Below are positions 24,248 to 56,752 of a DNA stretch of 64,000 nucleotides, piece after piece (the stretch's first letter is position 1; every line of letters starts with the position of its first letter). Under the pieces are notes generated by a model that saw nothing but the letters and a program-made list of their open reading frames with translations, did no database searches and was not told where the DNA came from. The DNA is from Cryptosporangium phraense (GTDB taxonomy: Bacteria > Actinomycetota > Actinomycetes > Mycobacteriales > Cryptosporangiaceae). A program made the translations under genes and the position numbers. Location: assembly GCF_006912135.1 (NCBI RefSeq), contig NZ_VIRS01000004.1, forward strand, positions 124,001 through 188,000. Direction: 5' to 3'.

Positions 24248-27200
24248 GTGACCTCGGGGGGCGGGAATTTCGACGAGGCGTCCGATCTTCTCGATCGCGC
24301 GCAGGAGACGCCGGACGACACGGTCGTCGCGGCCGCTGTGGACGCGTGGAGCCGGTTGGCCGCGTCCTACCCGGATGACGCCGACACACTGCGAAGCTAC
24401 GGGCTCGCACTCGATGCCCGGTACGAGTTCGGCGGCGATCCGGACGATCTCGATACGTCGATCGAGATCTTCCGGACGGCGCTCGGCCGGGCCGGGGACG
24501 CGGACGATCGGCACCGGCTCCAAGTCCTGATCGGAATGGGTTTCGTCTCCCGAGCCCAGCTGACCGGAACACCGGCCGACTGGGACCGCGCCGTCGCCGA
24601 ACTCCGGACGGCCGCGTCCGAGGCGCTGGACGGCGGGCTGACGGCGGGGATGCTGGGCGGGGCGCTCCTGATGCGCACCGATCGCGTAGGCACCGACCTG
24701 GCGTCCTTGAACGAGGCCGTCGACTGGTTCCAGCGTGCCGTCCAGGCCGGGAGCGCCGACGGATGGCTACGCGTCGGCCTCGCTGAAGGCCTGTGGCGCC
24801 GGTACGAATTCGCCGGAGATCCATCGGACGTCGACGCGGCGATTTCGGCGGCCCGCGAGGCCCTCGGGGAGGATCCCTCGGCGGTCGGCGGAGCGTGGGG
24901 AGTCCTCGGGCTGGCCCTCCAATCGCGGTTCGAGCGCACGAGCGACCGCGCCGACCTGGAGGCGGCCGTCGAGGCGCTCCGAATCAGTCTCGACGGCGAT
25001 CCCGAGGACGCCGGTCGCCTGAGCGACCTCGGTCAGGCTCGAATGGCGCGGTACGTGGCCACCGGCGATCCCGCCGACCTGAATGCCGCCGTCAGCCTCA
25101 CCTCCCGGGCCCTCGAAGTCTCCGAGACCGGCCCCGCGGAGGTGACGAGCCGAGCGAACCGGCGATCCAATCTCGCCGCCGCTCTGATCCTCCGGCACAC
25201 GGTGGTCGGGAGGCCGCAGGACCGGGAGAACGCGATCGCGCTGCTGCGTCGATCGATCGCGGATCGGCCACCCGGCCATCCGGCCAACGTCACCGACCTG
25301 GCCAACCTCGGTAGCGCGCTCCTGCTGGCTTACCAGGAGAGCGGCGACCCGCGGCGACTCGAGGAAGCCCTCGCGGTTGGCGCGTCCGCGATGACGGTCC
25401 CCAGCAGTCCGGTGGAGATGGGCAGTCTGGCCGCCAACCTCTCGACCATGCGTCAGGCCGCGTTCGTCACCACGAGTTCCGACGACGACCTCGACGACGC
25501 GGTCGGCCGCGCGCGGGAGGCGCTGGCCGCCGTTCCCGACCGGCACTACCAGCGCGCCCGGCTCTGGTACGCGTTGGGCCTCTCGCTGTTGACCCGGTAC
25601 GAGCGTCGCGGCTCGGTCGCGGACCTCGACGAAGCCGTCCAGGCCGGCCGGAGCGCGGTCGGCGCCACCTGGCCCGGCCATGCGATGCGGCCGCTCGCCC
25701 TCTCCGCGCTGGGCTCCGCACTGCTCGTGCGGGGCACCGGGCTGGGCATCGGGGCCGACCTCGACGAAGCCGTCGTCGCTTCGCGCGGAGCCGTGACTCA
25801 GTCACCCGCCACCGCGCTGGACCTCGGTGTCTACCGCGGGCAACTGGCCGCGACCCTGCTGGCCCGAAACACCGCGCACGATCTCGACGAGGCCATCGAC
25901 GTGCTCCGCACCGCGACCGCCTCCAACCGCCTGCTGTTCAACCAGCCGATCCTCCTCACCCGACTGAGCACCGCGCTGGAGGGGCGGGCGCGTCGCACCG
26001 ATTCGCTCGCCGATCTCGACGAAGCCGCGGCCGCGCTGGACGACGCTCTCCGCCTGACGCCGGCCGACCATCGCTACCGAGCACTCGTGCACTCCGTCCG
26101 CAGCGACGTCGCCGCACGGCGGTACGCGCTGACGGAGACCCGCGCCGAGCTGGACCGAGCGATCGAACTCGCCCGGGACGCGGCCGGCACCGCTCGAGCC
26201 GACGATCCGTACCGCGCCCGGTATCTGGCCGAACTCGCCGTGCTGCTGCGCGAGAGAGAGGAGCCGACCGACCTCGACGAGGCTCGCGACGCCTACCTCG
26301 AGGCGGCCGCCATCCCCACGGCGACGCCCGCCCTGCGCGTCCGCGGCGCCCGGCACGGGGGTTTGATGCTCGCCGCCACCGATCCGGCGCGGGCCGCCGA
26401 ATTCCTCGAACAAGCGGTGCGGTTACTCCCCGAGGCGGTCCCCCGCCGGCTGGCCCGCAGCGATCAGCTGACCGCGATCGACCGGTATCCCGGCCTGGCC
26501 GGAGACGCGGCGGCGCTGGTCCTCGCCGATCCGACCCGTCCCGGGGCCGAGCGCGCGGCGCGGGCCCTCACGCTGCTGGAAGCCGGCCGAGCCGTCCTGC
26601 TGAGTCAGGCGCTGGACGTGCGAACCGACCTCGACGAATTGCGCCAGGCCGCGCCCGCACTCGCGACGCGATTCGGCGAGCTCCGCGAGCGGCTGGACGC
26701 GGTCCAGCACGAGCCGATGTCGACCGGCGACGGCGCGTCGGCGTCCGCGGCCGATTCCCGCCAGGAACTCGTCGAGCGCTACGCGGACGTCATGACTCGG
26801 ATTCGCGCGACGCCGGGATTCGCCGACTTCGGCTTACCGCCTCCGGTCGAGAAACTGCTGGCGGAGGCGTCGGAAGGACCCATCGTCACGTTCAACGTCG
26901 GCGGATCGCGCAGCGACGCTCTGATCGCGACTCCCGATGGGGTCCGTGTGGTGGCGCTGCCGGATCTGAGCCAGGACGAGGCCATCAACCAGGTCAACCG
27001 ATTCCGTGACGCGCTCCGGCTCGACGACCAGTCCCGGCTGGGGGAAATCCTCGAGTGGCTCTGGGATGTCGCGGTCGGGCCGGTGCTGGAGGTGATCGAC
27101 GCCCCGCGCGTCTGGTGGGCCACCGGAGGACTGCTCGCGCTGCTTCCCGTCCACGCGGCCGGGCGGGCCGACGGGTCCGTCTCCGCGCTGGACCTGGTCG

Positions 27201-27853
27201 TCTCTTCCTACACGCCGACCATCCGGGCCCTGGCGCATGCGCGCCGGCTGGCCGCCCGGCGCACCGGGCCGGCCGGGCGTTCGCTCGTCGTCGCGATGCC
27301 GACGACGCCCGGGCTCGGCTCCGTCGGTGATCTGCGCTACGCCGCCGAGGAGGCGCGACGGGTTGCGTCGCTGCTGCCCGCGCCGACGTTGCTCGACGAC
27401 GGACGCTCGGCCACCCGTGACGCGGTGCTCGACGCGTTGCGGACGTGTGGCATCGCGCACTTCGCCTGCCACGGCATCAGCGACTCGTCCGATCCGTCCC
27501 AGAGCCGGCTGCTCCTCGGCGACCACCCACTGACGGTCGCGGACCTGTCGGCCGCGGATTCCGGCGAAGCCCGGCTGGCTTTCCTCTCGACGTGCGACAG
27601 CGCGCTGGCCGGGCGTCTCTTCGACGAGGGCATCCACCTCGCGTCCGCACTCCAACTGGCCGGCTTCCCGCAGGTCGTGGCCACGCTCTGGGAGGTCTCC
27701 GACCGGGTCGCGGCCAGGTTGGCCGAGCACTTCTACCAGGAGCTGCCCGGACGCGGCGGCGCGCACGCCCTGCACACCGCGGTCACGGCGCTGCGCCGAC
27801 GCTACCCGGCGACGCCGTCGCTCTGGGCCTCCTACGTCCACGCCGGTGTCTGA
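24248..27853 (+). CDS. TPR-repeat CHAT domain caspase-like protease
   Basis: A 1201-aa protein. Residues about 10-870 are a long alpha solenoid of degenerate tetratricopeptide-like repeats, many with the period marker 'DDLDxAIxxxRxAL' (for example DLEAAVEALRISLDGDPEDA, DLDEAVQAGRSAVGATWPGH). The C-terminal CHAT domain (about 960-1201) keeps the caspase-like dyad: His1075 in HFACHG and Cys1116 in LSTCDSA, followed by GFPQVVATLWEVSD. CHAT proteases are known in caspase-like conflict systems (for example Craspase and gasdermin-cleaving proteases); the repeat arm may sense a trigger. No gasdermin or CRISPR effector is adjacent. A PrsW-type protease follows after a hairpin. Confidence 0.92.
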   Translation: MTSGGGNFDEASDLLDRAQETPDDTVVAAAVDAWSRLAASYPDDADTLRSYGLALDARYEFGGDPDDLDTSIEIFRTALGRAGDADDRHRLQVLIGMGFVSRAQLTGTPADWDRAVAELRTAASEALDGGLTAGMLGGALLMRTDRVGTDLASLNEAVDWFQRAVQAGSADGWLRVGLAEGLWRRYEFAGDPSDVDAAISAAREALGEDPSAVGGAWGVLGLALQSRFERTSDRADLEAAVEALRISLDGDPEDAGRLSDLGQARMARYVATGDPADLNAAVSLTSRALEVSETGPAEVTSRANRRSNLAAALILRHTVVGRPQDRENAIALLRRSIADRPPGHPANVTDLANLGSALLLAYQESGDPRRLEEALAVGASAMTVPSSPVEMGSLAANLSTMRQAAFVTTSSDDDLDDAVGRAREALAAVPDRHYQRARLWYALGLSLLTRYERRGSVADLDEAVQAGRSAVGATWPGHAMRPLALSALGSALLVRGTGLGIGADLDEAVVASRGAVTQSPATALDLGVYRGQLAATLLARNTAHDLDEAIDVLRTATASNRLLFNQPILLTRLSTALEGRARRTDSLADLDEAAAALDDALRLTPADHRYRALVHSVRSDVAARRYALTETRAELDRAIELARDAAGTARADDPYRARYLAELAVLLREREEPTDLDEARDAYLEAAAIPTATPALRVRGARHGGLMLAATDPARAAEFLEQAVRLLPEAVPRRLARSDQLTAIDRYPGLAGDAAALVLADPTRPGAERAARALTLLEAGRAVLLSQALDVRTDLDELRQAAPALATRFGELRERLDAVQHEPMSTGDGASASAADSRQELVERYADVMTRIRATPGFADFGLPPPVEKLLAEASEGPIVTFNVGGSRSDALIATPDGVRVVALPDLSQDEAINQVNRFRDALRLDDQSRLGEILEWLWDVAVGPVLEVIDAPRVWWATGGLLALLPVHAAGRADGSVSALDLVVSSYTPTIRALAHARRLAARRTGPAGRSLVVAMPTTPGLGSVGDLRYAAEEARRVASLLPAPTLLDDGRSATRDAVLDALRTCGIAHFACHGISDSSDPSQSRLLLGDHPLTVADLSAADSGEARLAFLSTCDSALAGRLFDEGIHLASALQLAGFPQVVATLWEVSDRVAARLAEHFYQELPGRGGAHALHTAVTALRRRYPATPSLWASYVHAGV

Positions 27854-27856
27854 CGA

Positions 27857-27882
27857 CCCGATGTCTTCTGTGCGACATCGGG
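27857..27882 (+). terminator. hairpin terminator after the CHAT gene
   Basis: CCCGATGTC (27857-27865) pairs perfectly with GACATCGGG (27874-27882) across an eight-base loop, four bases after the CHAT stop codon. It suggests the CHAT transcript ends before the next gene. Confidence 0.6.
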
Positions 27883-27918
27883 CCATGATCTGATACTTGC
27901 CGGGGAAGGGAGCGGGTC

Positions 27919-28716
27919 ATGGAGCACGCGCGTCGCTGGTCTTGGGTGGGCGTTCTGGTCGTCGGGCTGGCGTTGTTCTGGCTCGTCCGCCGAGCCACGC
28001 TGCACACCGACAACCCGAACCTGATCCCCTCCCTCATCCTGCTCGGCGCAGCCGTCATCCCGGTCACGTTCGTCGCGTTCATCGCCGGACGTCGGATCGC
28101 CTACGGGGTGTCCGGCGGGACGCTGGCCCTGACCGCGCTGATCGGCGGGGTCATCGGCGTCGTCACGGCCGGCGTGCTGGAGTTCGACACGCTGCACGAC
28201 CTGGGCATGCTGCCGATGGTCGCGGTCGGGCTGATCGAGGAGTCGGCGAAGCTGATCGCGCCGCTCGCGCTGGTGTTCTTCCTGAAGCCCCGGCGCCCGG
28301 CCGACGGGTTGCTGATCGGCGTCGCGTCCGGGGCCGGGTTCGCGACGCTGGAGACGATGGGCTACGGGTTCGTCGAGCTGATCCGGTCGAACGGCAGCAT
28401 CTCCGCCCTCGACGACGTGCTGTTCCTGCGCGGGGTGCTCAGCCCGGCGGCGCACATGGCGTGGACGGGCCTGACCGCGGCCGCACTCTGGTACGCCGCC
28501 GAGCGCGGCTGGCAGACGTCGGCCGTCCTGCGTTTCGTCGGAGTGTTCGCAGTGGCGGTCGCGTTGCACGCGACCTGGGATTCGTTGGCGAACACCGTCG
28601 CCTACCTGATCCTGGCGATCATCAGCCTCGGCCTCCTCGGGGTCACCACCCACCGGGCGTCGGTCGAGTCCCGGTCGACTCTGCTGTCGCCGATCGCTCG
28701 CGAGAAGCACGCATAG
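27919..28716 (+). CDS. PrsW family intramembrane metalloprotease
   Basis: A 265-aa polytopic membrane protein with about eight hydrophobic helices. PrsW/PF13367 active-site motifs are present: GLIEESAKL (EExxK, about residues 102-110), FATLETMGYG (about 135-144), SPAAHMAWTG and ALHATWDSLAN. Relatives cleave membrane anti-sigma factors or other single-span proteins. A good ribosome site (GGAAGGGAG) precedes ATG 27919, with a GATACT box at 27892. It lies 66 bp after the CHAT gene; whether they act together is unknown. Confidence 0.88.
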   Translation: MEHARRWSWVGVLVVGLALFWLVRRATLHTDNPNLIPSLILLGAAVIPVTFVAFIAGRRIAYGVSGGTLALTALIGGVIGVVTAGVLEFDTLHDLGMLPMVAVGLIEESAKLIAPLALVFFLKPRRPADGLLIGVASGAGFATLETMGYGFVELIRSNGSISALDDVLFLRGVLSPAAHMAWTGLTAAALWYAAERGWQTSAVLRFVGVFAVAVALHATWDSLANTVAYLILAIISLGLLGVTTHRASVESRSTLLSPIAREKHA

Positions 28717-50072: not shown

Positions 50073-52919
50073 TCACCTGGCCGAAAAGGACTCCAGTTCC
50101 TTGCGGACCGTCTCGGCCTCCGCCGACCCCAGCTCCACGTACAAAGCCAAAGCCTCCCGCAACCGCCCCCGGGCAGACTCCGGCTCCGCACGCGCCAGCC
50201 CCACGCACGCCCGAGCCTGCTCCGCCCGCTCCCCGATCGTCGTCGCCAGCGCCAGCGCCTCGGTGAACATCACCGCGCCCGTGCTGGCGCACCCTCGGCC
50301 CACTTCCGCCTCCCCCAACCCGTTGAGCGCGCACGTCTGGCCGTACCGCTCGCCGATCGTGGCGAACAGCCTGACCGCCTCGCGGAGGTACTCCGCGGCC
50401 TCGGCCGGCCGATCCAGGCTCAGGTGAACCTCGCCCAGGTTCGTCAGCGCGGTCGCCTCACCGCCTTGGTGACCCAGCTCGCGGAAGCGCTCCAGCGCCT
50501 CCCGGAGCATGCCGATCGCCTGCTCGTTCCGGCCCACCCGCATGAGGATGTCGCCGAGGTTGGTCTGCGTGTTGGCCTCCCCGACCCGATCGCCGAGCTC
50601 GCCGAACAGCGCCAGCGCGGCTCGGTGGTAACGCTCGGCGTCGTCGTAGCGGCCGATCTGCTGGCTGATCACGCCGAGGTTCCCCACGGCCCTCGCCTCC
50701 CCGGTGCGGTCCCCCAGCTCCCGGAAGACCGCGAGCGCCCGGGTCAGGTGCTCCATCCCCTCCGGATACCTCCCGATCTGCCAGTACACGACCCCGAGGT
50801 GGGAGAGCGCGGCCGCGACCCCGGCCCGGTCTCCGGTCCGCTCCGCGGCCGTCAACGCGAGCGTGTGGACGGTCAGCGCGTCCGCCGAGTGCCCCCCGTT
50901 GTCCAGGTACACGTAGAGCGTCGACGCCAATGCCGACGCCACTGAGCCCGGCCCGCGCGACGCCGTGTACTCGCACACCGCGAGAAAGGCCGGACGGTGC
51001 CGGTCGAGCCAGGCCCGCGCGTCCTCCGGGGTGGGGAACGTCGGCAGCGGGGAGCTGATCGGCTCCACCGGGGGGCGCCGGTGTCGCTCGGCCGGGTACA
51101 GGACGTCCATCGCGGCGCCGGCCGCGGCCAGGTAGTACGCGAAGAGCCGGGCCCGGGCGGCGTCGCGGGCGGCCGGCGGGTCCTCGGCGTCCGACTGGGC
51201 CAGCGCGTAGGCCCGCAGCAGGTCGTGCAGGCTCGCGGCCCCGCGGATCAGGTGCGCCCGGCTCAGGACGGTCAGCGCCTGCCGGGCGTCGGCCAGGCTC
51301 TCGGACGCGAGCGCGGCGGCCGCGTGGGCGTCGAACTCCGGACCGGGGTGCAGTCCCAGGCGCCGGAACATCCGCGCGGCCGGCCCCGGCAGGCGCTGGT
51401 AGGACCAGCTGAACACCGCGCGGACGTCGGCCCGCGGGTCACCGCCCGCGTCGAGCAGGTCCAGGCGGGCCCGGTGGTCCTCCAGTTCCGCGACCAGGTC
51501 GGCGAGCGTGCTGTCCGGACGTCCACCGGCGAGTTCGGCGGCGACGCGCAGCGCGAGCGGGAGGCGTCCGCACTGTTCGGCCAGGGCACGCGCGGCCTCC
51601 GGTTCGGCGTCGACCCGCGGGCCGATCAGCGAGCGCAGCAGCGAGACGGCCTCGGCCGGATCCAGCAGGTCGAGGATCAGCCGGTGCGCGCCGTGCACGG
51701 CGACCAGCCCGGCCAGCGTGTCCCGGCTGGTGACGAGCGTGGCGCAGGTCGGCGAGCCCGGTAACAGCGGCCGGACCTGCTCCACCGACGACGCATTGTC
51801 GAGCACCACGAGCAGCCGCCGCCCGGACAGTTCGGTGCGGTAGCGGGCGGCGCGCTCGTCGACGTCCAGAGGAAGGTCTCGGGCGGAGACGCCGAGCGCG
51901 GTGAGGAAGCCCGCGAGGGCGGCCGACGGGGTCACCGGAGGCTCGGTGCCGTAGCCACGGAGGTCGAGGTAGAGCTGACCGTCGGGGAAGCGGTCGCGGA
52001 CCTCGTGCGCCCAGCGGATCGCGAGCGCGGTCTTCCCGACGCCCGCGGTGCCCGACACCGCGGACACCACGACGGCGCCCGAGCCGTCGACGAGGCTCGC
52101 GGAGAGTTCGGCGAGCGCGGAGGCGCGGCCGGTGAAGGCCGGAACGTCGGCCGGCAGCTGAGCGGGCACGGGTCTCCGGAGGGGTTCCGGCTCCGGGACG
52201 CCCCGGAGCACGGCCTCGTGCGCCGCCCGCAGCTCCGGGCCCGGGTCGACCCCCAGCTCCTCGATCAGCCGGGCCCGCGCCCGCGCGTACGTGTCGAGCG
52301 CCTCGGCCGTGCGGCCGGCCAGGTGCAACGCCCGGACGAGCTCGACCAACAGCGGCTCGGCCAGCGGCTCGGCCGCCACGAGCTCCTGGAGCCGGTCGAC
52401 GACCGCGCTCGCGTGCCCGAGCGCGCTCTCGGTGCGGGCCCAGAGCGCGACCGCACTGCGCCGCTGCTGCTCGAGCCCCTCGCGGACGGCCGTGGCCCAG
52501 ATCCCGGGGACGTCGGCCAGCGGCGTCGACTGCCAGAGATCGAGCGCCTCGCCGAGCAGGGCCGCCCGGCGGGCGTCCGGGCAGTCGTCGGACCGGGCGT
52601 CGGCCACCAGGGACCGGAACCGGTGCAGGTCGATCACGTCGCGGTCGACCAGCAACGCGTAGCCGCCGGAACGGCGCTCGACCACCGCGGAGTCGGCCAG
52701 CAGCCGTCGGATCCGGGCGATGTGGGCGTAGAGGACCTCGCGGGCCTTGGCCGGCGGGTCGTCACCCCAGACCCGGTCGATCAGCGCCTCCACCGGCACC
52801 GGTCGACCGACGTCGACCAGCAGCGCGGCGAGCACCGTCCGACGCTTCACCGGCCCGAGGTCCATCGGACGACCGTCGACGGTCATCTCCAACGGGCCGA
52901 GCAGCCGGAACTGCGGCAT
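50073..52919 (-). CDS. AfsR/SARP family regulator (BTAD, NB-ARC, TPR)
   Basis: A 948-aa regulator. N-terminal OmpR-like DNA-binding domain (about residues 1-90; LLGPLEMTVDGRPMDLGPVK, LIDRVWGDDPP), bacterial transcriptional activator domain (about 95-240), NB-ARC ATPase (about 260-560; P-loop SGTAGVGKTALAIRWAHE, RRLLVVLDNASSVEQVRPLL) and seven or so C-terminal TPRs (about 660-935; YPEGMEHLTRALAVFRELGD, RTGEARAVGNLGVISQQIGR). ATG 52919 follows AGGAGGAG. Such proteins are STAND-type switches controlling secondary metabolism or development. A possible target is the module encoded next to it. Confidence 0.94.
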   Translation of the reverse strand: MPQFRLLGPLEMTVDGRPMDLGPVKRRTVLAALLVDVGRPVPVEALIDRVWGDDPPAKAREVLYAHIARIRRLLADSAVVERRSGGYALLVDRDVIDLHRFRSLVADARSDDCPDARRAALLGEALDLWQSTPLADVPGIWATAVREGLEQQRRSAVALWARTESALGHASAVVDRLQELVAAEPLAEPLLVELVRALHLAGRTAEALDTYARARARLIEELGVDPGPELRAAHEAVLRGVPEPEPLRRPVPAQLPADVPAFTGRASALAELSASLVDGSGAVVVSAVSGTAGVGKTALAIRWAHEVRDRFPDGQLYLDLRGYGTEPPVTPSAALAGFLTALGVSARDLPLDVDERAARYRTELSGRRLLVVLDNASSVEQVRPLLPGSPTCATLVTSRDTLAGLVAVHGAHRLILDLLDPAEAVSLLRSLIGPRVDAEPEAARALAEQCGRLPLALRVAAELAGGRPDSTLADLVAELEDHRARLDLLDAGGDPRADVRAVFSWSYQRLPGPAARMFRRLGLHPGPEFDAHAAAALASESLADARQALTVLSRAHLIRGAASLHDLLRAYALAQSDAEDPPAARDAARARLFAYYLAAAGAAMDVLYPAERHRRPPVEPISSPLPTFPTPEDARAWLDRHRPAFLAVCEYTASRGPGSVASALASTLYVYLDNGGHSADALTVHTLALTAAERTGDRAGVAAALSHLGVVYWQIGRYPEGMEHLTRALAVFRELGDRTGEARAVGNLGVISQQIGRYDDAERYHRAALALFGELGDRVGEANTQTNLGDILMRVGRNEQAIGMLREALERFRELGHQGGEATALTNLGEVHLSLDRPAEAAEYLREAVRLFATIGERYGQTCALNGLGEAEVGRGCASTGAVMFTEALALATTIGERAEQARACVGLARAEPESARGRLREALALYVELGSAEAETVRKELESFSAR

Positions 52920-53083
52920 CTATCTCCTCCTGCGCCGTCTTGCACCGAACCCTGCCCATACATCACACAAGATTTGCGCAAGATTTCCGCTGGATCGGTC
53001 AGAGAAGGTGGAGAAAGCCCGGGGTTCCGCGCCGGCACGGGGCAGCGCGGGATCGACGGACCAGCTGGCGGCGTCCTGCTCCA

Positions 53084-53938
53084 CTACCCCTCCGGAGCAG
53101 GGCGCCCCTGGCTAGACAGATCGTCCACCAGCGACACCACGCTCTCGTCGAGCGCCGCTCGGCGGCGGTTGACGGCCGTGCGCAGGTACCGCAGCTCGGT
53201 CGCCGCCTCGACCGGACGGCCCGCGGCCAGCAGCGCCTGCACGTGCAGCACCTGCGCGCGCACGGCCGGCGCCGAGAACCGCCCGTACCGGGCCCGGCGC
53301 ACCCGGACCAACCCCTCGGCCAGCTCCACCGCCGCCGCCTCGCCGGCCCGGATCAGCGCCACCGCCAACAGCCCCCGGGCGTTCCAGGTGAACGGGGCGT
53401 TCTCGCCGTAGTGACGCGCGCGGTGCGCGACCTCCTCGTCGAGAAGCTGCCGAGCGTCCGCCAGATCCGTCCCTTGCCGACGTTCGAGCAGCGCGAACGC
53501 GTAGTTGGCCCGGGCGATGCGGGTGCGGTAGTCGTCGCCGCCGAGCGCACGCCGCCGCTGGTTCCACTCGGCTTCGTACCGGCCCAGATCGGCGGCATCC
53601 CCGCCCCGCCGCTCGTACTGCGCGGCAAAGGCCCGGACGCTCATCAGCGTCGTGTCGTCCCAGGACAGCGCCCGCTCGGCCCGCCGGAGCAGCCCGCGCC
53701 AGGCGACTCGGGACTCCTCCGGCGGTCGGTGCCGGGACAGCGCCTCCTCCAGCGCGCACTCGACGAACAGCGAGACCTCGTGCTCGGGCCCGAGCAGCGC
53801 GACCGACTCCTGGTGCAGCGTCCGGACCGGGGCCGCGTCGCCCACCTCGTCGGTGTGGTGCAGGACGACCTGCAGGCGGGCTCGTAGAACGGCGACCACA
53901 TCGCCCTCCGGGGACTCGTCGGCGGCCGCGGCCGTCAT
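53084..53938 (-). CDS. helical-repeat (TPR-like) protein of unknown function
   Basis: A 284-aa soluble protein from ATG 53938. No named family is recognised. It looks all-helical with TPR-like repeats: LRARLQVVLHHTDEVGDAAP, ARANYAFALLERRQGTDLAD, ARQLLDEEVAHRARHYGENA, FTWNARGLLAVALIRAGEAA, and VLHVQALLAAGRPVEAATEL. Similar bacterial-transcription-activator/kinesin-light-chain-like repeats occur in NB-ARC and CHAT sensors, so a protein-binding role is likely. ATG 53938 overlaps the stop of the upstream gene (ATGA); the two should be made together. Confidence 0.78.
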   Translation of the reverse strand: MTAAAADESPEGDVVAVLRARLQVVLHHTDEVGDAAPVRTLHQESVALLGPEHEVSLFVECALEEALSRHRPPEESRVAWRGLLRRAERALSWDDTTLMSVRAFAAQYERRGGDAADLGRYEAEWNQRRRALGGDDYRTRIARANYAFALLERRQGTDLADARQLLDEEVAHRARHYGENAPFTWNARGLLAVALIRAGEAAAVELAEGLVRVRRARYGRFSAPAVRAQVLHVQALLAAGRPVEAATELRYLRTAVNRRRAALDESVVSLVDDLSSQGRPAPEG

Positions 53939-54768
53939 TTCTCGCCCCGCAGCAGCAGGAGGACGTCCCGCAGCTGTGGGACCAGGTGGTCGGCCAGGTT
54001 CTCGCGGTCCGCGGTGGAGAGCTGCGGCACCAGGTACTCGACCGCGGCCAGCCCCTCGGACACCTCGGTGAGCAGCGTCTCCAGCGGCTCGCCGCGGACG
54101 AAGCCGAGCGTCATCAGCTCGTCGTGGACCGCGTCGAGCGTCCCCAGCGGGGACAGCCCGCGCGGGCTGTGGGCCAGCTCGACCACCCGGGTGAGCAGCG
54201 CGACGACCGCCCCGACCGGCGGGTCGCCCGGGCTGACCAGCCGCAGGTCCTCCACCGCGCAGACCGGTGGGGCCGAGCGTCGCACGGCGGCCAGCGGGCG
54301 GTTGGCCGACGCCCATTCGGCGAGCACCCGGACCAGCGTCTCGGCCGCGAACTGCCGATCGTCCCGGCTCAGCGCCCCGAGCGTGGACGCCCAGGCCTCC
54401 CGGCACGGCCAGAAGCTCACGGCCTTGGCTTCGAAGATCAGGGCGTCGACCGGGCCGGGGTGCCTGCGGGCGACGTACGGGCTGCCGGCGTAGTGCGCGG
54501 CCAGGGAGCGGGCCCGCTGGCCGAACAGAGAGTAGAGCGTCGAGGTGGCCTTGGCGCCGGCCAGCGTGGCCAGGTCGGCCCGGTCGATTCGCGCCTCGCT
54601 CCACTGCGCGGTGGAGTCGTCAAAAGGTTCGAGGTGATCGAGATGGGTCGACAACGCCCGGTAGTACCGCGTCCTGGTCTGGCCGGTGACGCTCTGCCGT
54701 TCGGAGAGCACCGACGAGTACCACCGCGCGCTGATCGTGCGACGAAGTTCCTCGGAAAGGTGCGCCAT
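53935..54768 (-). CDS. unknown protein with a TetR-like helix-turn-helix segment
   Basis: A 277-aa protein, first gene of a coupled pair. No family is recognised. Residues about 62-95 (RIDRADLATLAGAKATSTLY, SLFGQRARSLAAHYAG) strongly resemble the helix-turn-helix and following helix of TetR-type repressors (xxDLAxxAGxxxxTxYxxFG), though in an unusual position. The rest is helical and hydrophobic-rich without membrane spans (VGAVVALLTRVVELAHSPRG). A TAAGAT box at 54812-54807 on the minus strand is a plausible -10. A DNA-binding role is inference. Confidence 0.75.
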   Translation of the reverse strand: MAHLSEELRRTISARWYSSVLSERQSVTGQTRTRYYRALSTHLDHLEPFDDSTAQWSEARIDRADLATLAGAKATSTLYSLFGQRARSLAAHYAGSPYVARRHPGPVDALIFEAKAVSFWPCREAWASTLGALSRDDRQFAAETLVRVLAEWASANRPLAAVRRSAPPVCAVEDLRLVSPGDPPVGAVVALLTRVVELAHSPRGLSPLGTLDAVHDELMTLGFVRGEPLETLLTEVSEGLAAVEYLVPQLSTADRENLADHLVPQLRDVLLLLRGEK

Positions 54769-54859
54769 CCCCCACCCCGACGACGAGCCCGTGATTTAGG
54801 CGATCATCTTAGGCGGTGATTGGGAGGATTCGCGCTCTGCTGCAGGTCGGCGGTTACCG

Positions 54860-54889
54860 TTGTCGCGATCAGACCGTCCCGTCTAGACA
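54860..54889 (+). promoter_or_regulatory. promoter of the divergent 308-aa gene
   Basis: TTGTCG (54860-54865) and TAGACA (54884-54889) are 18 bp apart, with initiation expected near 54896 and an AGGAGG ribosome site before GTG 54912. On the other strand TAAGAT (54812-54807) may drive the coupled pair, so both promoters lie in the same 143-bp gap. Confidence 0.5.
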
Positions 54890-54911
54890 GTGGCGAGCGG
54901 CAGGAGGTGCC

Positions 54912-55838
54912 GTGGACGAGCGGGAAGAGCTGCGCCAGGAGCTGCGCCGGCTCTGCCGTGGCCGCGGCGTCCTGGCCCCTGACCTCGCCCAGCGCGTCGG
55001 CCCCCGGGTGGCGGCGCTGGTCAGCGACGCCGGCGATCGCTCCGCGATCGTCGACTGGCTGCGCGATCACGTCCGGCGGCTCCCCGGCGACCTGCGGCTG
55101 GCCGCCGCCGTCGGGCTGGGGCTGCATCCCCCGGCCGACGCCCGCTTCCTGGGCGAGCGCCTCGACTGGCTGGCGACCGATCTCGGACGCGAGCAACGCA
55201 CGGTCCGGCGTCGGCTGGACGAGGCCCTGGCCCTGCTCGCGGAGGCGGTGACCGGCTCGGCGACCCCGCCGGCCGAGACCGCCGACCCCAGCGGCACCGG
55301 CTGGTACAACCACTCGGTCCGCTCGCTGGTGATGCTCGACCGGGACGACCCCGAGGTGTTCGAGGAGCGGACGATCGCCGCCACCGGCGCCCCGATCGAC
55401 GTCATCCGGGTGGCGATCAGCGTTCCCCGGCAGCCCGACGGGGAGCCGCCCGACCTGTTCGTCGACGTCCTCTACGGCGGGTTGCTGCTGAGCAGCGAGC
55501 GGCCGAGCACCAGCCACTTCCGGTCCGAGATCGCGTTACCGCGCACGGTCGGGCCGGACGACGCCCACCGGGTGGGGTTCCGGTACCGGCTCGCGCCCGG
55601 CCAGCGGATGGCGCCGCACTACGCGCTGACGCCGCTGAGCCGCTGCGACCGGTTCGCGCTGCGCGTCCGCTTCCCGATTCCGACGCCGACGACGTACCTG
55701 CTGCGGGGCGTGCCTCCGCGGAGCCTGGACGATCCGCCGGGCGCGCTGACGCGGGTCGAGCCCGACCGGGCCGGCGAGGCCACCGCCCGCTTCGAGGCGC
55801 TGACGCCCGGCCTCGGCTACGGCCTGCGCTGGGTTTGA
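54912..55838 (+). CDS. actinobacterial protein of unknown function with an N-terminal helical domain
   Basis: A 308-aa protein starting at GTG 54912, which has a perfect AGGAGG ribosome site; the longer frame from 54816 would cross the promoter. Residues 1-110 (REELRQELRRLCRGRGVLAP, LRLAAAVGLGLHPPADARFL, LATDLGREQRTVRRRLDEAL) form a helical domain seen at the start of many actinobacterial regulatory proteins, ending in a helix-turn-helix-like RTVRRRLDEAL. The C-terminal 190 residues are beta-rich (ITVSVPRQPDG-like runs; VDVLYGGLLLSSERPSTSHF, YALTPLSRCDRFALRVRFPI). Function unknown. It is divergent from the coupled pair and may form a module with it. Confidence 0.75.
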   Translation: MDEREELRQELRRLCRGRGVLAPDLAQRVGPRVAALVSDAGDRSAIVDWLRDHVRRLPGDLRLAAAVGLGLHPPADARFLGERLDWLATDLGREQRTVRRRLDEALALLAEAVTGSATPPAETADPSGTGWYNHSVRSLVMLDRDDPEVFEERTIAATGAPIDVIRVAISVPRQPDGEPPDLFVDVLYGGLLLSSERPSTSHFRSEIALPRTVGPDDAHRVGFRYRLAPGQRMAPHYALTPLSRCDRFALRVRFPIPTPTTYLLRGVPPRSLDDPPGALTRVEPDRAGEATARFEALTPGLGYGLRWV

Positions 55839-55987
55839 CCGGTAATTGTCCGGCCCATCGCTGACTGACCCACATCTGGAATAGAGGTCGGGAGCGGCGG
55901 ATCGCAGGCTCGGGAGCGTCCACTTCGTACGCTTACCGAGGAGCCCGCGATGGGAGACGGTCCGCCGGACGGCGAGGGCGAAGGCCC

Positions 55988-56752
55988 TTAGGAAACAGGT
56001 ATCAAAGTCAGGTAGGCCATGTTGAGGATGCCCCGGTAGCCGCGCAGCCAGCTCGCCCGGTGGCTGTCGGCGTTGTGCCGGAGTTCCGCCGCCCGCGGGT
56101 GCTGGGGATTCGCGGCCAACCACTCCTCGACGTCGGCCTGGAAGCCGGACTCGAACTGCTCCCACTCGTCCGGCCCGGCGGTCTCGACCCAGAGCGGACG
56201 GAATCCGGCCTCCACCGCGAGATCGGTCAGCCGCGCGAGGTCGCAGTGGTCGTGGGCGGCGGCGTCGGGCCACATCCGGGAGAGTTCGAGGACGGTCGGC
56301 GGGCGCTCCCAGAAGCCCTCGGCGTACAGCACGCGGCCGCCCGGGTTGACCAGCCGGCGCAGCTCGCGGAGCGCGCCGATCAGGTGGTCGGGCGGGGCCG
56401 CGTCGGTCAGCGCGTGCCCCGACCCGACGCACAGGACGACGTCGGCCGGCCCGCGCCGGGTGCCGATGCCCGACTCCTCGACGAACTGCACCCGGTCGGC
56501 CAGCCCGCGCCAGGCCGCGGTGCTCCGCCCCCGGGCCAGGTCTTCCCGGTTCAGATCGACGCCGACGCCGTGCGCGCCCGGGACGGCGTCCACGAGCCGG
56601 AGCAGCAGCTCACCCCAGCCGCAGCCGATGTCGAGGACGGTCGCGGGCTTGGCCGCGGCGAGCCGTACCACCAGACGGTTGGCACGAGCGGCCGACAGCG
56701 GGCCGTGGAACTCCAGGCTGTGCAACCTGGTCGGTGACGATGCGTCAGGCAC
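55988..56752 (-). CDS. class I SAM-dependent methyltransferase
   Basis: A 254-aa methyltransferase. The SAM-binding motif I is VLDIGCGWGELLLRLVD (about residues 39-55), motif II GVGVDLNREDLARGR, then VVLCVGSGHALTD and LRELRRLVNPGGRVLYAEGF. C-terminal residues form a lid (FQADVEEWLAANPQHPRAAE). Substrate unknown. It overlaps the Nudix gene start region by eight bases, so the two are co-transcribed from the minus strand. Confidence 0.93.
   Translation of the reverse strand: MPDASSPTRLHSLEFHGPLSAARANRLVVRLAAAKPATVLDIGCGWGELLLRLVDAVPGAHGVGVDLNREDLARGRSTAAWRGLADRVQFVEESGIGTRRGPADVVLCVGSGHALTDAAPPDHLIGALRELRRLVNPGGRVLYAEGFWERPPTVLELSRMWPDAAAHDHCDLARLTDLAVEAGFRPLWVETAGPDEWEQFESGFQADVEEWLAANPQHPRAAELRHNADSHRASWLRGYRGILNMAYLTLIPVS

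Follow-up and report, generated by a model that had tools for sequence, protein, structure and literature searches.

Three unnamed genes beside an AfsR-like gene in Cryptosporangium phraense: probably a patchily distributed actinobacterial accessory module

Introduction

Two kinds of described system come closest to the locus reported here. In the portions of two accounts on which we draw (PMC7159879; PMC8195603), the CATRA/caspase-TPR and MoxR-vWA ternary conflict systems combine several small non-catalytic components and TPR scaffolds with STAND NTPases and with TIR and caspase-like effectors, and occur in actinobacteria; passages of the latter account (PMC8195603) place GT4 in caspase-dependent CATRA systems, and report NPCBM-kinase fusions whose neighbours include caspase and AP-ATPase-TPR genes. 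The other kind comprises the regulators of SARP-NB-ARC-TPR architecture, exemplified by AfsR, a SARP activator that its own NOD and TPR parts keep in check until ATP binds (PMC10936776). Here we describe three genes, A, B and C, that lie next to an AfsR-like gene in a 64,000-nucleotide stretch of the Cryptosporangium phraense genome (contig NZ_VIRS01000004.1, positions 124,001 to 188,000; the whole stretch is called the window, and its own coordinates are used below). These genes probably constitute a real accessory module of actinobacteria, patchy in its distribution, and not a chance arrangement, since homologues of all three keep their order, orientation and 4-bp overlap in seven other genomes, from soil-type bacteria that are only distantly related. 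Judging from sequence and genomic context, the module is most likely a regulated unit of signalling or conflict type.

Results

The divergent A-B-C layout recurs in another order

Genes A (53935..54768, 277 residues) and B (53084..53938, 284 residues) are encoded on the minus strand of the window and overlap by 4 bp (ATGA), the ATG of B overlapping the TGA of A within GCGAGAAATGACGGC. Gene C (54912..55838, 308 residues), which has a GTG start behind AGGAGG, lies on the plus strand and diverges from A across a 143-bp intergenic region (54769..54911). The first-pass annotation, made from the sequence alone, had read the arrangement in the same way and could name a family for none of the three products, and both statements stand: searches of Pfam, NCBIfam, PADLOC and PHROGs with A, B and C returned nothing, and even at an E value of 1 the PADLOC protein models of known anti-phage defence yielded no family for them. 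The G+C content at third codon positions is 0.92-0.94 in A, B, C and the AfsR-like gene.

A gene-neighbourhood survey for co-occurrence, which the first-pass annotation had proposed, recovered the full divergent layout (C facing A, with B following A) not only in the window but also in a genus of another order (g108), where seven genomes have it (L070-L075, L077), all seven with the same 4-bp overlap of A and B; identities to the window proteins are 38-41% for A, 37-41% for B and 39-44% for C. The pairing of A with B is found more widely. B adjoins A in 16 of the 19 distinct A loci (the window, L012-L020 and L070-L078; L069, which is the same genome and site as L018, was excluded from the count), and the loci without a B neighbour are L018, cut by a contig end, L019, a short A with no B match in a metagenome-assembled genome (MAG), and L076, with no B match. 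Genes of the other genomes were delimited by a simple gene caller, hence their start positions are approximate; as called, the A/B overlap measures 26 bp at five Herbidospora loci, 8 bp in Actinomadura and 19 bp at L078, and a 13-bp gap separates the two genes at L020. At 8 of the 16 loci with the pair, which belong to Herbidospora, to an Actinomadura and to one further genome, no C adjoins it.

The genome survey scored few candidates per genome, so that all its counts are lower bounds. Among 394 sampled genomes of the class, A occurs in at least 10 (11 matched, one of which, G428, carries a TetR), and the C profile matches at least 22, some through one domain only; profiles of the C-terminal and N-terminal domains of C match at least 39 and at least 19 genomes, respectively. 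Of the 10 genomes that carry a true A, 9 also match the C profile (the match in G294 being a fragment), versus 22 of 394 overall, a comparison in which the kinship of the genomes inflates any p-value. A was not found in 100 relatives of the window's genome, including three of the same genus. Neither A nor C matched among 72,556 plasmids, C did not match among 50,697 phage records, and an IMG/VR pattern scan with A and C gave no confirmed relative. In the C tree, the window protein pairs with that of L116 (support 96/89), and this pair groups with the C proteins of the seven g108 loci (88/73); the A tree places the window protein with those of g108, on long branches and with weak support (74/58).

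Predicted properties of the three products

The first-pass annotation called B TPR-like, a view supported by structure prediction and not by sequence families. AlphaFold2, run on B with six relatives, gave a confident model (predicted local distance difference test, pLDDT, 87) with 13 helices, and a Foldseek search of the PDB with this model returned 14 matches at E 0.001 or better, all of them kinesin-light-chain TPR entries (best 4y6c, E 2.1e-4). Pfam found no TPR in 15 B members, and a B profile did not match the AfsR-like protein of the window; searches with B used its first 276 residues. B is predicted to be an alpha-solenoid of tandem helix pairs of the TPR type.

A is mostly helical by prediction and belongs to an unnamed family, with P-P-x-x-A-V-E-D-L (residues 167-175) invariant across 19 true A proteins. 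Its structure model is poor (pLDDT 59, with the first 130 residues mostly below 50), and a Foldseek search with this low-confidence model gave no fold match. The first-pass annotation had assigned A a TetR-like helix-turn-helix (HTH), and such an HTH is possible around residues 28-94. The support for it is a weak match of the A1 profile, between positions 28-94 of A and the TetR entry 5ydp (E 0.044), in a part of the model mostly below pLDDT 50; the same profile also matches L079, a true TetR in genome G428, at E 3e-4. The rebuilt 19-sequence profile (A11), from which L079 was left out, found no TetR in the PDB at E 1, Pfam found no TetR_N in the 19 true A proteins, and all HTH-type Pfam matches in the A set belong to L079, which together with its genome is excluded from our A counts. 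A much stronger TetR match (profile A4, E 3.7e-8) was discarded as circular, as A4 included L079 and the match vanished after rebuilding without it.

C is built from two domains that also occur separately: an N-terminal domain (approximately residues 5-113) with an RTxRRR motif and a C-terminal domain (approximately residues 129-308), beta-rich by sequence, that ends in YGxRW. A paralogue in the window's own genome (L054:9454-10572, minus strand; G000:C14, approximately 27453-28571 of the contig) consists of TIR_2 (E 3.2e-16) followed by the C-terminal domain of C, and is the only one of 30 C-set proteins with TIR_2. In the L118 protein, the same domain (C-terminal domain profile E 1.2e-66) follows HTH_31 (E 3e-11), which is of the XRE type; among 41 scanned proteins with the C-terminal domain, this is the one in which Pfam named HTH_31 and HTH_3.

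Other combinations were noted in passing. Some further proteins with the C-terminal domain (e.g., L150 and L157) look HTH-like by eye, and a Pfam rescan of these two gave no match. The RTxRRR domain of C is fused to an unnamed domain at L123:8283-9497 and L125:7632-9233, and at L120:7917-9068 it seems to be joined to a macro-like region, a weak assignment based on our own reading of the sequence and a PDB match at E 0.098 to the macro protein TTHA0132. The reading frame of the C copy at L115 (G204:C1:3009057-3010028), adjoining a TIR-TPR gene, contains one TGA and one TAG and looks like that of a decaying gene.

The intergenic region between A and C

The region shared by the divergent genes A and C is a candidate regulatory region. 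In the window, it contains a near-direct repeat, TTAGGCGATCAT (54796) and TTAGGCGGTGAT (54809), with 13-bp spacing (54796-54820), which is not evident in the seven aligned A/C intergenic regions of g108. These seven regions have in common, with small changes, a block close to TTTCATTATGCTG, a candidate operator, and when a shared operator was sought across the A/C intergenic regions of all 8 loci this block was not seen in the window. The first-pass annotation had given C a promoter of its own; a scan of 52800-56000 found no sigma-70-type promoter for it.

The AfsR-like gene is a neighbour, and NB-ARC genes recur near C in one family

The AfsR-like gene (50073..52919, minus strand, 948 residues) lies directly downstream of the A-B pair, as had been annotated, starting 164 bp after B. 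Its SARP/BTAD-NB-ARC-TPR product matches Trans_reg_C, BTAD (Pfam, 4.9e-32), NB-ARC (5.7e-8) and TPR_12 (1.8e-32), and three PADLOC models that are of TPR type or weak. With 555.5 bits versus the NCBIfam equivalog cut-off of 1430 bits for AfsR, it ranks as a relative and is not to be equated with AfsR itself. At a phmmer threshold of E 1e-20 or better, no AfsR-like gene was found in the stretches surrounding the 18 other A loci, most of which reach some 8 kb to either side and some less far, and AfsR-like proteins were present in 7 of 48 A/C stretches, none of which are A loci, versus 2 of 40 control regions. In family f14, all six C loci have NB-ARC genes nearby, as against 1 of 19 control regions from that family, a count to be read in the light of three of the six loci being alike and from one genus (L049-L051) and of two partners lying at distances of about 4 and 7 kb. 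The match spans the NB-ARC-TPR part only (NB-ARC only in L052, which is cut by the end of the stretch), except for L053, whose partner has a SARP part too and faces C divergently; in the partner gene at L118, an XRE-type HTH precedes NB-ARC. Given the f14 counts, the restriction of the match to the NB-ARC-TPR part and the lack of A loci among the AfsR-like stretches, what recurs is C together with NB-ARC(-TPR), and not A-B together with AfsR. The AfsR-like gene is a neighbour of the module and not a constant partner of A-B; hence, the first-pass picture of a module beside an AfsR-like regulator is valid for the window and finds an echo in the NB-ARC genes near C in f14, but was not seen in the stretches around the other A loci.

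Conflict-type genes near A and C

We compared the neighbourhoods of 40 A/C loci, in 30 genomes picked by us and not at random, with the density of CHAT genes in each genome. A CHAT (caspase-like) gene lies within 8 kb at 4 of the 40 loci versus 0.40 expected (P 7e-4); within 10 kb the figures are 4 versus 0.48 (P 0.0015), and within 15 kb 7 versus 0.69. With 8 loci added, none with CHAT, the 8-kb count becomes 4 of 48 versus 0.48 expected (P 0.0015). The CHAT and TIR tests left out G132, G183, G260, G328, G386, G424 and G436 (weak or single-domain C) and the MAG of L019; G440 was kept though its C is single-domain and it had already been seen with CHAT. No CHAT was found in stretches L019 and L121-L128. 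A local CHAT profile matched 4 of 48 A/C stretches versus none of 40 control regions; its sequences came from the window and from L016, L116 and L120, so that three of the four matched loci were bound to be found.

The four CHAT-bearing loci (L016, L116, L118, L120) lie in four genomes. At L016 (Actinomadura), the CHAT gene is located 382 bp before A-B. L118:1162-17001 holds genes for CHAT, for HTH with the C-terminal domain of C, for HTH-NB-ARC-TPR and for CATRA-N with GT4-conflict (GT4-conflict E 3.4e-121), and is, by its Pfam assignments, a named conflict system containing the C-terminal domain of C. As regards TIR, 5 loci among the matches listed have it within 10 kb, versus 1.54 expected (P 0.02); they include L076, where a TIR-NACHT gene directly follows A, L115, with its TIR-TPR protein beside C, and three more, the TIR fusion L054 not being scored as a neighbour. 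Other genes beside C encode nSTAND1-WD40 (L111), a weak nSTAND6/AAA match (L049) and kinases with PASTA and NPCBM domains (L110, L111).

Further observations concern CHAT and single loci. At L116:10951-16969, a RES-domain gene and a gene for a 1746-residue CHAT protein lie divergently to the gene most closely related to the window's C; we considered this locus as a member of the module, since a divergent C there faces a coupled pair with CHAT, and rejected it because the pair is not A-B, its second gene encoding the RES-domain protein. Genome G204 has 18 CHAT and 26 TIR_2 matches within 10 Mb. The window itself has a CHAT-domain stretch at approximately 27044-27847 (plus strand; G000:C4:151044-151847), within a 1208-residue open frame 26 kb from the module.

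Discussion

Our explanation of the locus as a whole, which we hold tentatively and put slightly short of an even chance, is that C is a sensor-regulator of A-B and that A-B is an adaptor complex docking a STAND, CHAT or TIR partner. C would bind DNA in the shared 143-bp region through its N-terminal domain, sense a ligand or a partner through its C-terminal domain and in this way control A-B. A and B may assemble into a complex, with the TPR of B anchoring A to a further protein. Where a STAND (NB-ARC-TPR), CHAT or TIR protein is encoded in the vicinity, it would most likely be this partner; in the window, the AfsR-like protein would be the nearest candidate. The module would then tune NLR-like signalling or a conflict response. 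The first-pass annotation had already suspected a signalling or conflict module, and the CHAT, TIR, STAND, RES and CATRA-GT4 neighbours or fusions of C and A favour that suspicion without demonstrating it; several A-B loci lie among ordinary metabolic genes.

A number of observations weigh against this proposal. The N-terminal domain of C matched no HTH family, and the sole HTH protein among 30 C-type members, that of L118, is without this domain. The module is flanked in the window by genes for a transport permease and binding protein, a methyltransferase and a NUDIX protein; L070, the one scanned of the seven g108 A-B-C loci, adjoins SpoIIE-phosphatase, acyl-CoA thioesterase and oxidoreductase genes; and Herbidospora sakaeratensis carries its A-B pair (L012) between MFS/SnoaL and Ricin_B/ThuA genes, with neighbour genes of like lengths at the other Herbidospora A-B loci (the domain scan covered L012). 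There is no CHAT within 8 kb of the seven g108 loci. L116, the nearest relative of the window's C in the tree, is without A-B, and the C proteins linked to A-B do not form one clade in the best tree, a single clade being not rejected (approximately unbiased test, p-AU 0.079); the linkage of C with A-B may be ancient and have been lost in the lineage of L116, or may have arisen twice. Without the single-domain G440 locus, the CHAT count falls to 3 of 39 (P 0.007), and the enrichment is moderate evidence only, because conflict genes are abundant and clustered in these genomes. The first-pass annotation had counted homologues lying apart in unrelated settings as adverse to a module, and this is in part what we see, given that C often occurs without A-B and that A-B of L012 has the neighbours just named.

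The metabolic surroundings of L012, L070 and the window would also suit a regulatory module of the ordinary kind, serving development or secondary metabolism, in which C, and perhaps A, would regulate transcription, B would be a TPR adaptor and the AfsR-like activator would act downstream as their target or be their partner, with no conflict role. The restraint of the SARP activator AfsR by its NOD and TPR domains, as the consulted part of PMC10936776 has it, fits such a module, as do the position of the C-terminal domain of C behind an XRE HTH in L118 and the ECF-type sigma gene near the A-B locus L078. However, CHAT genes within 8 kb of four A/C loci in four genomes, the TIR-NACHT gene after A at L076 and the fusion of the C-terminal domain to TIR in the window's own genome speak against it, as does the lack of an AfsR-like gene in the stretches around the other A loci; we regard this explanation as a distinct possibility that we, on balance, doubt.

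The small overlapping pair with its divergent partner, and the patchy occurrence of A (10 of 394 class genomes, and not found in three other genomes of the genus), recall a toxin-antitoxin-like or defence pair under the control of C, with A or B toxic. Such a pair seems quite improbable, in view of A and B matching no toxin family, the lack of a PADLOC match, the likeness of B to a plain TPR solenoid and the searches of plasmids and IMG/VR with A and C and of phages with C, none of which gave a confirmed relative. Possibly, only the A-B pair is real, and C and the AfsR-like gene are merely adjacent to it in the window, which would agree with the wide occurrence of C without A-B and with the eight A-B loci that have no adjacent C. 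We consider this very improbable as a whole: the divergent C-A-B layout in seven genomes of another order disfavours it for C, and for the AfsR-like gene alone the adjacency may be due to chance.

Returning to C as a sensor-regulator of the A-B adaptor pair, a bolder form of the proposal can be stated, namely that A-B-C forms the core, so far undescribed, of a network of NLR-like type for immunity or cell death in actinobacteria, in which the C-terminal domain of C would be a portable sensor, carried by TIR, XRE and RTxRRR proteins, and A-B a portable adaptor pair for a nearby STAND, CHAT or TIR effector. We think it rather unlikely that matters extend so far. If the conflict-type reading is true, three unnamed actinobacterial protein families would gain a shared function, a C-terminal domain present in about one tenth of the sampled class genomes (39 of 394) would be tied to TIR, CHAT and STAND biology, and the module would offer a small entry point to the control of NLR-like responses in multicellular bacteria. 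If it is a regulator unit only, the locus would still be a conserved arrangement worth annotating.

Keyword searches of a full-text library returned no description of the A-B-C arrangement, which, for families without names, is weak evidence of absence. Compared with the TetR family, A shows weak profile similarity to 5ydp over positions 28-94, and Pfam matched no TetR_N in its 19 true members. Compared with the XRE-type HTH protein of L118, C has the C-terminal domain in common and differs in its N-terminal domain, which is of the RTxRRR type and has no Pfam match. The AfsR-type regulators share their architecture with the gene downstream of B, and B is predicted to share their TPR fold; unlike AfsR, B lacks SARP and NB-ARC parts, and no gene of the AfsR-like type was seen in the stretches around A-B at other loci. 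The constant A-B-C core differs from the CATRA and MoxR-vWA systems in being without MoxR, vWA, STAND or protease components, and Pfam matches to CATRA, effector-associated, MoxR, vWA and protease families were absent from 20 A-set, 15 B and 30 C-set members. The likeness to these systems, as far as the cited portions describe them (PMC7159879; PMC8195603), lies in the several small non-catalytic components and the TPR scaffold, in the STAND NTPases and the TIR and caspase-like effectors and in the occurrence in actinobacteria. It is seen most directly at L118, where the protein with the C-terminal domain of C adjoins genes for CATRA-N with GT4-conflict, for HTH-NB-ARC-TPR and for CHAT.

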